From Alistipes sp. (GTDB lineage: Bacteria; Bacteroidota; Bacteroidia; Bacteroidales; Rikenellaceae): 64,000 nucleotides of DNA. The notes under the pieces are model-generated. The model was not told the DNA's origin. It did not search any database and saw nothing but the letters and a program-made list of their open reading frames with translations. Where the stretch lies: NCBI GenBank assembly GCA_017416915.1, contig JAFQAN010000028.1:1-64000 (forward strand), given 5' to 3'. Position numbers and translations under genes: made by a program. Positions 38,101 to 47,680 of this stretch are shown here, piece by piece (the stretch's first letter is position 1; every line of letters begins with the position of its first letter).

Positions 38101-38475
38101 CGAGAGGTGCGGCTCGGAAGGCGCGCGATATGACTGGGGGCGACTGGAAACGGTTGAGTGGCGCGCGATTTTACTTAGAAAGACTGGGAAAACCTGGGAA
38201 AGACTGAGAAAGACTGGGTAGCGCGCCAACAAGACGACGAGACAGCGAGATAACGAGACTTCAAGACTACGAGACCACGGGACAACGAGATACCCTAAAA
38301 AACACAGGCATTCTCAGGCGTTCTCAGGCATTCTCAGTCGTGCGTGGCATCTTGGCGTCAGAGTGGTGCAGATGTGGTGCATCGCAAAAGAGGGTGCCAC
38401 GGGATAGTACCAAAGCGTACAGCCCGTGGCGCTCTACTTTTTGGGATGTGCCGCAGATGCGCCACTATCACGCCA
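38101..38475 (-). repeat. Intergenic structured element, copy A (minus orientation)
   Basis: The gap between vanX and udk is filled by an element that reads, on the minus strand, in the same order as copy B at 47311-47680. Its parts are: a hairpin with arms GCCACGGG / CCCGTGGC (38396-38430) and a 19-nt loop; a CTGAGAA-type repeat ending in TGTGTTTT (38297-38337); a tract of imperfect AGACNACG repeats (38230-38290); and GCGCGC-containing units with CCCAGTC (38120-38226). See findings. No protein-coding potential is apparent. Confidence 0.7.
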
Positions 38476-38484
38476 AGAAAACTA

Positions 38485-39102
38485 TCACGCTAAGATAATA
38501 GACCTTATACTCTCAATCAGCATACCCACCGCCACCGAGTTGAAGCCGCCCTCGGGGATGATGACATCGGCATACTTCTTTGACGGCTCTACAAACTCCT
38601 CGTGCATAGGCTTCACCGTCGTCGTATATTGGTCGATGACCGACTGCATAGTGCGTCCTCGCTCACATACATCGCGCAGGATGCGGCGCGCAAGGCGTAT
38701 GTCGGCATCCGTATCGACAAAGACCTTTATATCCATAAGCTCGCGCAGCTCACGATGCTCGAAGATGAGGATGCCATCGACGATGATAACACGCGACGGC
38801 TTGACTGCCACCGTCTCCTCGGTGCGGTTATGCTCGACAAACGAATATACGGGATGCTCGATAGGCACGTTGTTCTTCAACGCGCGGATATGCTCTACAA
38901 GCATATCGGTATCGAACGCAGCGGGGTGGTCGTAGTTGAGCTTCGTGCGCTCGTCGTACGTCAGCTCGGGGTGTGCCTTATAGTAGTAGTCGTGGCATAG
39001 CGTAGCTACGTCGTCATCCTTGAACGCCTCCTGCAAGCGCCTCACGAGCGTCGATTTGCCTGAGCCTGTGCCTCCTGCGACACCTATTACGGTAACTTCC
39101 AT
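38485..39102 (-). CDS. udk: Uridine kinase
   Basis: A P-loop pyrimidine salvage enzyme of 205 residues phosphorylating uridine and cytidine. Walker A is GVAGGTGSGKST (7-18), followed by CHDYYYK, NYDHPAAFD and the VIVDGILIFE segment typical of the family. It follows gyrB on the same strand but a terminator (39136-39161) lies between. Confidence 0.95.
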   Translation of the reverse strand: MEVTVIGVAGGTGSGKSTLVRRLQEAFKDDDVATLCHDYYYKAHPELTYDERTKLNYDHPAAFDTDMLVEHIRALKNNVPIEHPVYSFVEHNRTEETVAVKPSRVIIVDGILIFEHRELRELMDIKVFVDTDADIRLARRILRDVCERGRTMQSVIDQYTTTVKPMHEEFVEPSKKYADVIIPEGGFNSVAVGMLIESIRSIILA

Positions 39103-39135
39103 ACTCCTAATCTCCTTAGGGTTAATATATTAACA

Positions 39136-39161
39136 AGGGGCGGCTACAACGTTCCGCCCCT
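39136..39161 (-). terminator. Terminator after gyrB
   Basis: 8-bp GC-rich stem AGGGGCGG / CCGCCCCT with a 10-nt loop; on the minus strand followed by TGTTAAT. It lies 18 bases past the gyrB stop. Confidence 0.55.
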
Positions 39162-39178
39162 CTCTATGTTATGCTATG

Positions 39179-41140
39179 TTATGCGTCGATGTTGGCGTAG
39201 TGCGCGTTCTTCTCGATAAACTCGCGGCGTGGCGGCACCTCGTCGCCCATAAGCATCGAGAATATGCGGTCTGCCTCGGCAGCATTCTCCACCGTTACCT
39301 GGCGCAAGATGCGTGTCTCGGGATTCATCGTGGTATCCCACAGCTGCTGTGCGTTCATCTCGCCGAGACCTTTGTAGCGCTGTATGTGCAGACCCTTAGA
39401 GCCAAACTCTGCGGTAATCTCGTCGCGCTCCTTGTCGGTCCAGCAGTAGCGCTCCTGCTTGCCGTTCTTGACGAGGTAGAGGGGCGGCGTGGCGATGTAG
39501 ATGTGTCCGTTCTCGATGAGCGCCTTCATCTTGCGGAAGAAGAAGGTGAGCATAAGTGTCGCGATGTGTGAGCCATCGACATCGGCATCGGTCATAATGA
39601 TAATCTTGTCGTAGCGTAACTTCTCCAAGTTCAGCGCCTTGCTATCCTCTGCCGTGCCTATGGTTACGCCCAAGGCGGTAAACATATTCTTAATCTCCTC
39701 GTTCTCCCACATACGATGCTCCTGTGCCTTCTCGACGTTGAGTATCTTACCGCGCAGAGGCATAATAGCCTGGAAGTTACGGTCGCGACCCTGCTTCGCC
39801 GTGCCACCTGCCGAGTCTCCCTCGACGAAGAATATCTCGGCGATAGACCTGTCGCGGCTCGTACAGTCGGCGAGCTTACCTGGCAGGCCTGCGCCCGACA
39901 GTACCGTCTTGCGCTGCACCGCCTCGCGGGCATTACGTGCTGCGTGGCGCGCCTGTGCGGCGAGGATTACCTTCTGCACGATAGCCTTGGCGTCGCGCGG
40001 ATTCTCCTCCAAGTAGTGGGTAAGGGCTGCCGACATAGCGCGGTTTACGGCGCCCGAAATCTCGTCGTTGCCGAGCTTGGTCTTTGTCTGTCCCTCGAAC
40101 TGAGGCTCTGCCACCTTTACCGAGATTACCGCCGTGAGGCCCTCGCGGAAGTCGTCGCCGTTGATGTCGAACTTCAACTTAGAGAGCATACCGCTCTCCT
40201 CGGCGTAGCGTTTTAGCGTACGTGTGAGTGCCTGACGGAAGCCCGTGAGGTGGGTACCGCCCTCTATGGTGTTGATGTTATTGACGTAGGAGTGGACATT
40301 CTCCGAGTAGGAGTCGTTGTACTGCATAGCCACCTCCACAGGAACGCCGCTCTCCTCGGTGTCGAGGTAGATGATGTTCTCGATAATCTTCTGACCACGT
40401 GTGGCATCCAAGTACTCCACAAACTCGCTAAGACCGTGTTCCGAGTAGAAGTGGTCCGAGAGGAAGGCGCCATCGTCGAGCTTCACGCGGCGGTCGGTGA
40501 GCGTGAGGTGGATACCCTTGTTCAGGAACGCCAACTCGCGCAGACGGTTAGCCAAAATCTCATATTTGTACTCGGTGGTAAGCGTAAAGATGGTGCCGTC
40601 GGGCTTGAACGTAACGGTAGTACCGCGGTCCTCGCAGTCGCCCACAACATCGACCTTAGAGGTCGGCACACCGCGCGAGTACGACTGGCGGTATATCTTG
40701 CCGCCGCGGTGTATCTCTGCGATGAGAAGCGTCGAGAGGGCGTTTACACACGATACGCCCACGCCGTGCAGACCGCCCGACACCTTGTAGCTACCCTTAT
40801 CGAACTTACCGCCCGCGTGTAGCACCGTCAGCACCACCTCCAATGCCGACTTGCCCTCCTTTTCGTGGTAGTCGGTGGGGATGCCTCGACCGTTATCCTT
40901 GACGGTTATCGAGTTATCCTCGTTGATGGTAACGTAGATGTCGTTACAGTAGCCTGCTAACGCCTCGTCGATAGAGTTATCTACAACCTCATATACGAGG
41001 TGGTGCAGACCCTTCTCGCCGATGTCGCCGATATACATTGCTGGACGCTTACGCACAGCCTCCAACCCTTCGAGGACCTGAATATTCGACGCCGAATACT
41101 CCTCCTCGTGTTTCATCACTTTCTCTTGTTCGGTACTCAT
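39179..41140 (-). CDS. gyrB: DNA gyrase subunit B
   Basis: A type II topoisomerase ATPase subunit of 653 residues from the ATG at 41140 ([19 protein letters not shown]). It has the GHKL ATPase domain ([36 protein letters not shown]), the transducer, then the Toprim domain with VEGDSAGG, and a C-terminal [12 protein letters not shown] and [10 protein letters not shown]. It lacks the long proteobacterial insertion. It is divergent from the RepA-like gene across a 386-base gap. Confidence 0.97.
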
Positions 41141-41176
41141 TGTATATAATTTTGTTACTTTCGATATTGAAACGTA

Positions 41177-41184
41177 CAAAGATA
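41177..41184 (-). promoter_or_regulatory. -7 box for gyrB
   Basis: TATCTTTG on the minus strand, 36 bases before the chosen gyrB ATG. Confidence 0.55.
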
Positions 41185-46809: not shown

Positions 46810-47005
46810 ATACCTATATTTTAATATTACGGCGCAAAGGTAGCAAAATTATACGTACGGTGCAATCCCAATTTATGGGGATATGAGGGTGGAGTGATAC
46901 TTTTTTTTGCCAAACGAAAATATGTCTCAGACTGCCCGTAACAGCCATTTTCGGTCGATTTATCGGAAAATCACGACATTATATGCGATTTTTTTGCAAT
47001 AATAC

Positions 47006-47035
47006 TTTGAATAAGAAAATATTTTTATATCTTTG
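47006..47035 (+). promoter_or_regulatory. Full Bacteroidetes-type promoter for H1-like gene
   Basis: TTTG (47006-47009), an 18-base spacer and TATCTTTG (47028-47035), 33 bases before the ATG. It is the best promoter match in the window, suggesting strong expression. Confidence 0.75.
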
Positions 47036-47067
47036 CAAACAGAAAAACCTATTAAACAATTAGTGAT

Positions 47068-47244
47068 ATGAAGACTTTGGTAGAAAACATTAACGCCCAG
47101 TATGAGGCATTTGCAGCAAACGCAGCTTTGCAGGTAGAGAAGAACAATAAGGCAGCGGGTACCCGCGCTCGTAAGGCAGCCTTGGAGCTTACTAAGCTTC
47201 TCAAAGAGTTCCGCAAGGTTTCGGTTGAGGAGGCTAAGAAATAA
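47068..47244 (+). CDS. Histone H1-like small DNA-binding protein
   Basis: 58 residues (MKTLVENINAQYEAFAAN...), predicted wholly helical and rich in lysine, alanine and glutamate. It ends in LTKLLKEFRKVSVEEAKK, the pattern of the short histone H1/Hc1-like proteins of Bacteroidetes. It probably binds DNA as a nucleoid protein, though this has not been firmly shown for the family. Flanked by a strong promoter and strong terminator, as expected for an abundant protein. Confidence 0.8.
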   Translation: MKTLVENINAQYEAFAANAALQVEKNNKAAGTRARKAALELTKLLKEFRKVSVEEAKK

Positions 47245-47264
47245 TTTTAGCTGCGCTGAGATAG

Positions 47265-47294
47265 AGGCTGACCTTTTTTAGGGTCAGCCTTTTT
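47265..47294 (+). terminator. Intrinsic terminator after H1-like gene
   Basis: 9-bp stem AGGCTGACC / GGTCAGCCT with an 8-nt loop, followed by TTTTTG. It lies 20 bases past the stop. Confidence 0.85.
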
Positions 47295-47310
47295 GTTTGG
47301 TGTGATAAGG

Positions 47311-47680
47311 GCGCATCTGCGGCACATCCCAAAAAGTAGAGTACCGTGGGCTGTACACTTTGGTACTATCCCACGGCACTCTCTTTTGCGATGCACCACA
47401 TCTGCAACCCTTCTGACGCCAAACACCTCTCGCTTGGGAGCGTGGCAATAGCGCACTGCCTCGCACAACTGAGAACGCCTGAGAATGACTGAGAACGCCT
47501 GTGTTTTTCAGTAGTCTCGTCGTCCCGTGGTCTCGCAGTCTCGCAGTCTCGTCGTCCTGTCGTCTCGTCGTCTTATTGGCGCGCTACCCAGTCATTCCCA
47601 GTCTTTCTCAGGCGTTCTCAGTCCAATTGCGCGCCACCCAGTCTTTCTCAGGCGTTCTCAGTCAAATCGCGCGCCTCCCA
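47311..47680 (+). repeat. Intergenic structured element, copy B (plus orientation)
   Basis: Starts GCGCATCTGCGGCACATCCC and ends near GCGCGCCTCCCA. It contains a hairpin with arms CCGTGGG / CCCACGG (47344-47376) and a 19-nt loop, which differs from copy A's by one base. After this come CTGAGAA repeats ending TGTGTTTTT (47469-47508), a GTCTCG tract (47515-47575), and two tandem units of about 45 bases, each with CCCAGTC, TTCTCAGGCG and GCGCGCC (47576-47676). No coding potential seen. Confidence 0.7.

Follow-up and report, generated by a model that had tools for sequence, protein, structure and literature searches.

A dispersed hairpin repeat seated at stop codons in Alistipes genomes and its possible role in transcript 3′-end formation

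Introduction

Within a stretch of 64,000 nucleotides from the genome of an Alistipes sp. (GenBank assembly GCA_017416915.1, contig JAFQAN010000028.1, positions 1 to 64,000; hereafter the window), two intergenic elements on opposite strands, copies A and B, resemble each other over some 370 bases. A first-pass annotation made from the sequence alone described the same order of modules in both, namely a hairpin, CTGAGAA repeats, a GTCTCG-type tract and GCGCGC units, and proposed from two compensated base changes that the hairpin stem is functional, either as RNA or as a protein-bound DNA cruciform. The locus raises the question of what kind of element carries this stem and what it does at the places where it is found. 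Here we describe a structured and dispersed family of hairpin repeats, the reality of which we regard as nearly certain, and a seat of its copies at stop codons with fixed polarity, which is very likely. Judged from sequence comparisons, and with a probability of roughly 0.55, the element would be a mobile palindromic repeat resembling ERIC, YPAL and SPRITE that seats at stop codons and takes over 3′-end formation.

Results

The element is a non-coding, imperfect palindrome of about 127 nt that occurs dispersed and in some head-to-tail arrays. Copy A (38350..38478, + for the well-folding strand, subtype T1) was recognised with 144.5 bits by R1, a covariance model built from 33 copies of 9 species, and with 104.2 bits by R2, a second model built from 32 copies of many subtypes, and it is further characterised by its covariation. 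Copy B (47295..47424, - for the well-folding strand, T1) reached 138.1 bits with R1 and 98 bits with R2. Both copies are present with the described order of modules, and the exchange of CCACGGG/CCCGTGG for CCGTGGG/CCCACGG in the stem as well as the single differing base in the 19-nt loops were confirmed. However, this 7-bp stem is only part of a larger hairpin, as the fold takes in the entire repeat of 129-130 nt. The annotated strand of copy B has a minimum free energy of -59.9 kcal/mol and its opposite strand one of -75.2 kcal/mol (z of -7.37 and -9.75, respectively), and none of 200 dinucleotide shuffles for each strand was as stable.

Covariation extends well beyond the two pairs noticed at first. 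In alignment A2 (33 copies from 9 species, aligned by MAFFT and not fitted to the structure, which was itself predicted from A2), 98.2% of 1546 pair cells are standard and 32 of the 47 modelled pairs show double compensation, that is, changes on both sides. The covariation value of 0.526 compares with 0.167 ± 0.010 when shuffled and 0.043-0.106 when slid. Since stem pairs change with compensation, the stem is under selection. Length is narrowly kept (124-131 nt in 165 of 170 copies), within a set that was cleaned of reverse-strand duplicates and from which copies below 116 nt had been left out beforehand; one leftover reverse copy (L109) stays in it and was counted against the reading favoured here. 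At least seven core subtypes, T1-T7, were distinguished besides unclassed copies. The inner stem differs between them. Shared features are the outer frame, which reads TTNNNGTCAGAAG ... CTTATCACNNNAA along the well-folding strand, internal loops (predicted), and a tip that follows the pattern GUAC-loop-GUAC exactly or closely. All 33 T1 copies keep invariant motifs such as GGAUAGUAC..GUACAGCC. A variable outer triplet is mostly common to the subtypes within one genome and different between species.

Searching the 1.97-Mb genome with R1 returned 145 matches at E <= 0.01 among the best 150 candidates. After removal of 17 reverse-strand repeats of places already counted and of 7 weak or partial matches, one of which is full-length (C13:41486, 37.6 bits), at least 121 distinct copies were kept. 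They form 98 clusters (79 singles, 15 doubles and 4 triples) when copies on the same strand and no more than 12 nt apart are joined. At least 13 of the 42 contigs of this genome (C7, C11, C12, C14, C21, C22, C24, C25, C28, C31, C33, C39 and C41) begin or end about 250 nt or less from a copy. The assembly therefore seems to break at the repeats, which probably makes 121 an underestimate of the copy number. This may serve as a warning for such metagenome-assembled genomes (MAGs), whose contigs tend to end at the hairpin repeats. At one place (L156, C5:75526-75912) three near-identical T3 units stand in tandem with a period of 130 nt beside a long CTGAGAA minisatellite, which suggests a recent local amplification.

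The family is widespread in the genus and thins out beyond it. At least one R1 match (E <= 0.001) was found in 71 of 121 genomes of the genus sample, the present one included, and 50 were without; as the best 28 candidates were scored per genome, the count for many genomes is at least 28. An exact core pattern was detected in 40 stretches from named genomes, all of them labelled Alistipes sp. or Rikenellaceae bacterium; 34 are labelled as coming from ruminant gut samples and six have no host named. Viral contigs gave no exact match to a shorter form of this pattern. With R2, 392 further genomes of the order gave at least 12 full-length matches, located in five genomes from three other families, and 394 further genomes sampled from the phylum gave none; both searches scored the best 8 candidates per genome under stricter filters, so that their counts are lower bounds. 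A covariance-model search of the kind that the first-pass annotation had proposed thus delivered abundant further copies in the Alistipes group and a few in other families of the order, and neither of the two findings that it had named as damaging to its proposal, a lack of further copies or stem pairs changing without compensation, occurred.

Only one strand keeps the structure nearly intact. The strand opposite to the annotated one folds better in 164 of the 170 copies, by 17.3 kcal/mol on average, and it is also the more stable one in all nine examined copies from other families of the order; subtype T6 folds about equally on both strands. A structure predicted on the annotated strand contains 11 G.U against 35 A.C cells, whereas the prediction on the opposite strand contains 177 G.U against 6 A.C cells, and still 81 against 6 when mostly-wobble pairs are removed. 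A cruciform uses both strands equally, and here near-complete pairing is confined to a single strand. This speaks against selection for a protein-bound cruciform, while the proposal of a functional stem was borne out as far as the compensation is concerned. Gene conversion would likewise not give such asymmetry. Mutational bias of one strand may be an alternative source. The asymmetry would fit selection on one folded strand, be it RNA or single-stranded DNA.

The position of the copies relative to genes was analysed in other genomes with 81 copies that were chosen by hand from 246 rows and de-duplicated by their flanks, leaving out reverse-strand matches, most further array units and repeat entries of genomes present in two collections; the underlying search took in 90 of the 96 loci L060-L155. 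In 76 of the 81 the neighbouring gene reads towards the end of the element that is 3′ on the well-folding strand, taken here as the element start, and in 67 its stop codon lies within -15 to +20 nt of this start. The stop stands exactly at -1 in 44 copies, where the codon consists of TA plus the first base of the element (TA|A), and in five it is found at -11, inside the element's GTGATAA. Several of the 14 misses are array-internal units neighboured by another unit (for example L131, L123, L132, L121 and L078). In the own genome, where open reading frames (ORFs) of at least 150 aa were taken as genes and 46 of the 98 clusters were without fetched flanks, a stop codon was found at the element start in 34 of the 52 clusters that could be tested, 8 of them with the stop exactly at -1, and at the other end in none, compared to 5.7% for random intergenic position-strand pairs. 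Nine of the 12 matches from other families were examined. In eight, a sense-strand ORF of 149-501 aa runs up to the element and its stop codon ends at -5 to +14 nt relative to the start; the remaining one, L290, is located at the edge of a contig. A rarer second seat, right after a T-tract, is that of copy B and, as seen by eye, of a few other T1 copies.

The genes concerned include those for EF-P, GAPDH and ribosome recycling factor, all above NCBIfam cut-offs, and for a PGK-like protein that falls below its cut-off; PEPCK, EF-G, rubrerythrin and Lpd were assigned by visual inspection of the sequence. At the 44 exact junctions a G precedes the TA in 29 cases, compared to 17 of 55 gene ends in the window, and the third codon positions before the stop are biased towards C (30/44 at -6, 31/44 at -9). 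This bias could reflect a target preference or be a mark of highly expressed genes.

Comparison of orthologous gene ends shows that the occupancy changes within the genus. Copy A stands at the 3′ end of udk, encoding uridine kinase (38485..39102, -; above the cut-offs of NCBIfam NF004018 and TIGR00235), and by eye and by model R2 no element was found there in 18 orthologues of the same genus. The end of the gene itself is altered: its last two codons and its TGA stop stem from an element remnant, the left end of another copy (CTTAGCGTGATAG, 38482..38494, -, assigned by eye), and the orthologues end differently. At the EF-P stop codon, 19 of the best 30 loci out of 115 matching genomes bear an element, with different subtypes in closely related species and two weak model matches (G106 and the own genome); for GroEL it is 6 of the best 30 out of 109, one of them weak (G119). 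In both cases these are the closest relatives and not a random sample.

At these loci the presence of the element goes along with the absence of an ordinary terminator. EF-P genes without the element have an intrinsic terminator 19-29 nt after the stop codon in 10 of 11 loci, and those with the element have a separate terminator within 60 nt in 0 of 19 (Fisher p = 3.7e-7, or 3.8e-6 if G105 is counted, where the terminator call lies inside a shortened element). For GroEL a terminator within 60 nt was detected in 20 of 24 loci without and 0 of 6 with the element (p = 3.5e-4; in G095 a call at 105 nt lies inside the element), although all of these p-values overstate independence, as the species compared are related, a point that weighs against the interpretation given below. 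Taken together, none of the 25 element-bearing EF-P and GroEL loci has a separate terminator within 60 nt, whereas 30 of 35 without the element have one. A terminator within 60 nt is present in 10 of the 18 udk orthologues; the element-bearing udk has none within 250 nt. The element itself offers a GC-rich tip stem with a T-rich stretch behind it: using the midpoint, 144 of 170 copies have at least five T in eight positions on the sense strand and 109 on the other, and among the 154 copies with a recognised tip it is 132 versus 107.

Further features of the window complete the picture. On the other side of copy A lies a D-Ala-D-Ala dipeptidase-like gene (37318..38100, +; NF007557 with 110 bits, below the cut-off of 176). 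The CTGAGAA, GTCTCG and GCGCGC modules are tandem repeats adjoining the hairpin and do not belong to what the alignments show as common to the species. Beside copy A they form a minisatellite tract at 38116..38340 (-), with CTGAGAA-type, GTCTCG-type and GCGCGC units in tandem repeats at 38173-38216, 38227-38290 and 38305-38337, and beside copy B a tract at 47465..47680 (+) with repeats at 47469-47501, 47514-47573 and 47597-47680. Copy B begins directly after the T-tract of a terminator-like hairpin to its left (47263..47292, +). Lone pieces of CTGAGAA/TGTGTTTT and GTCTCG tracts occur without a hairpin at 41340-41389 and 44262-44300 and are probably decayed sites; the latter overlaps a terminator-like hairpin. 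An ACTCTAT-type minisatellite with two periods of 46 nt (54036-54132), about 400 nt from a tRNA gene, shows the same style of intergenic tract, again without a hairpin.

Discussion

The first-pass annotation was right about the elements and their covariation; it missed the stop-codon seat, the subtypes, the arrays and the link to terminators. We propose that the elements enter gene 3′ ends with a single orientation, which would place the beginning of the sense-strand hairpin within the stop codon or directly behind it. The GC-rich tip stem of this strand with its T-rich stretch would then end transcription or protect the 3′ end, and in this way the element would replace the terminator and be tolerated or kept. 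That it stands in for terminators has, on this comparative evidence, somewhat better than an even chance. The fold of the opposite strand would serve propagation, with a single strand of DNA or RNA being handled by a putative enzyme, which would explain that only one strand keeps near-perfect pairing. Propagation by way of a folded single strand is the more tentative part of the proposal and falls a little short of even odds. Going further, the insertion machinery might itself recognise gene ends: the folded antisense strand, as single-stranded DNA or RNA, would be joined at the stop codon, the stop regenerated by the first base of the element, and the intrinsic terminator displaced and a new one supplied. 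A parasitic repeat would thereby have become an alternative 3′-end system of the genus, moved by a kind of enzyme that has so far not been connected with repeats of this sort. This extended version we consider rather unlikely.

Several observations weigh against the proposal. TA is found on the stop-codon side in 59 of the 81 copies, but on both sides in only 12, and longer direct repeats in at most one; no target-site duplication was found. A mobilising enzyme did not emerge either: the Y1 transposase domain PF01797 occurs in 1 of the 121 genus genomes, not the own one, compared to 5 of 14 control genomes. The single genus genome with this domain (G091, L226) has no match to the hairpin model. 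Reverse transcriptase (PF00078) was found in 12 of 37 copy-rich genomes with at least 20 R1 matches, compared to 41 of 121 overall, and not in the own genome, all of these being incomplete MAGs. An RNA-primed retro-insertion with a reverse transcriptase as partner, which would have explained the polarity of the seat, is not supported by this distribution.

On the side of the terminators, the EF-P loci with an element were scanned as far as 900 nt downstream. Of the 17 with enough sequence, six have a later terminator-like site 168-694 nt after the stop codon (G097 433, G060 323, G096 694, G074 168, G017 376 and the own genome 371 nt), where the original may therefore have been pushed away; G105 has one inside its element, and ten have none. 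Plain displacement by the length of the element can thus explain at most some of the losses. The terminator may also have been lost by deletion at insertion. In subtypes T3 and T4 the sense-strand T-rich stretches are weak, with means of 4.2 and 4.0 of 8, and a simple terminator caller is negative on the element except in G105 (EF-P) and G095 (GroEL). Copy B sits after a terminator and replaces none. The short-tip element at the EF-P 3′ end of G105 (L282), which the simple caller reads as a true intrinsic terminator, is possibly a step from repeat to ordinary terminator.

The most serious alternative is a purely selfish repeat similar to miniature inverted-repeat transposable elements, as in the situation of YPAL and ERIC, for which 3′ ends are simply harmless places, terminators are lost by accident and a host function does not exist. 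The copy number that varies between species, with at least 28 in many genomes and no match in 50 of 121, would be expected of such a repeat, as would the udk insertion confined to this species with its altered C-terminus, the arrays and remnants, and the seat of copy B after a terminator T-tract. However, harmlessness alone predicts any intergenic place in both orientations. The stop codon was found in one orientation and at one end only (34 versus 0 of 52), often exact to the base (44/81), and all 25 EF-P and GroEL loci with an element lack a separate terminator in the first 60 nt after the stop. We judge this explanation unlikely.

Less probable still is an RNA with a function of its own that is read antisense to the host gene from the opposite strand, as a substrate of RNase III or a protein-binding small RNA (sRNA), with the stop-codon seat being secondary. 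The nearly full pairing of just this strand and the motifs GGAUAGUAC..GUACAGCC in 33/33 T1 copies would agree with it, but more than 100 copies per genome and the absence at many orthologous genes are unlike a dedicated sRNA; moreover, the tip motif differs in other subtypes, and Rfam gave no match. As a whole we rate this possibility as improbable.

A cis-acting effect on translation, in which a hairpin about 15 nt or less from the stop codon stalls terminating ribosomes and lowers expression, is very improbable. The seat is at the right distance, and repetitive extragenic palindromes (REPs) of E. coli less than 16 nt from the stop codon are described as stalling ribosomes (cited in PMC12306157). 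Neither the missing terminators nor the better fold of the strand that is not the mRNA would be explained, however, and in hosts such as EF-P, GroEL and GAPDH, which are expected to be highly expressed, the effect would be costly.

Integron attC sites are one-strand hairpins located just after stop codons and are recombined by a tyrosine recombinase. The layout is the same in that the hairpin follows the stop in fixed orientation, one strand folds and tandem arrays occur, but end boxes of the attC consensus were found at both ends in none of the 170 copies and array units directly abut with no genes between them, which leaves an attC-like site a most improbable reading; identity with attC was rejected. 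Least probable of all is a REP moved by a RAYT or IS200-like Y1 transposase, for although GTA(A/G) directly precedes the sense-strand hairpin, with a G before TA in 29 of 44 exact junctions, and the GTAG termini of REPs are described as often giving flanking ORFs their TAG stop (PMC3733652), the element exceeds the 20-40 bp of REPs (PMC3733652) by a factor of 3 to 6 and a Y1 partner was rejected on the distribution of PF01797 given above.

If the proposed take-over of 3′ ends holds true, the terminators of housekeeping genes, as seen for EF-P, GroEL and udk, have been replaced repeatedly and precisely by a mobile repeat in a large genus of gut bacteria, and the repeat has distant relatives in three further families of this order. 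Such a repeat would offer a natural system for studying the turnover of terminators in evolution and how an insertion machinery finds stop codons. As the one-strand covariation indicates which of the two strands has to fold, it can guide the search for the enzyme.

Comparison with known repeats

The opinion of the first-pass annotation that no element of this form has been described was too strong, since palindromic intergenic repeats near gene ends (ERIC, YPAL, SPRITE and REP) are a known kind. The hairpin family itself was found neither in Rfam (no match up to E 0.5 in 8 loci, the window giving two tRNAs only) nor described in the Creative Commons-licensed literature searched. Candidates from gut metagenomes such as HMP2_4205, which are palindromic, mostly from Bacteroidetes and carry a predicted terminator (132 bp; PMC8040213), could include this family, a comparison made by description only. 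The BrickBuilt elements of Porphyromonas gingivalis are also from Bacteroidota, intergenic and equipped with an internal minisatellite (PMC4596501), but they have terminal repeats starting with GAGACC and stem-loops formed by 23-nt repeats, and the excerpted text of that source does not mention a stop-codon rule for them (PMC4596501). REPs with GTAG/CGTC motifs and their RAYT partners resemble the hairpin element as extragenic palindromes that occur in clusters and whose termini give stop codons; as described in PMC3733652 they are 20-40 bp long and linked to Y1 transposases, whereas the hairpin element is longer and Y1 was found in 1 of 121 genus genomes.

The likeness to YPAL and ERIC (RU-2 and RU-1) is that of dispersed, non-coding intergenic palindromes of 100-170 bp, a description that the hairpin element shares. 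YPAL, according to a study from 2006, is reportedly inserted just downstream of stop codons and over terminators. These enterobacterial elements are described as palindromes of 127-168 bp that form stable stem-loops (PMC2759123, PMC2267715) and have TA duplications (PMC2759123). According to a review, transcript levels of Yersinia genes are altered when ERIC is inserted at their 3′ end (PMC10969869). In our family TA stands on both sides in only 12 of 81 copies; it belongs to another phylum and is further set apart, as judged from the descriptions, by its subtypes, head-to-tail arrays and one-strand covariation.

The terminator-like SPRITE of Streptococcus pneumoniae is likewise a dispersed palindromic repeat near the 3′ ends of coding sequences that may end or protect transcripts, and it was suggested to provide co-opted terminators; no target-site duplication is established in the excerpted description (PMC3049150). 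It consists of an 18-bp duplex with a U-rich tract and has 30 copies in the genome studied (PMC3049150). The hairpin element differs in its 47 modelled pairs over about 127 nt, in its number of at least 121 copies and in its seat at the stop codon itself, and orthologous loci lack the ordinary nearby terminator where the element is present.

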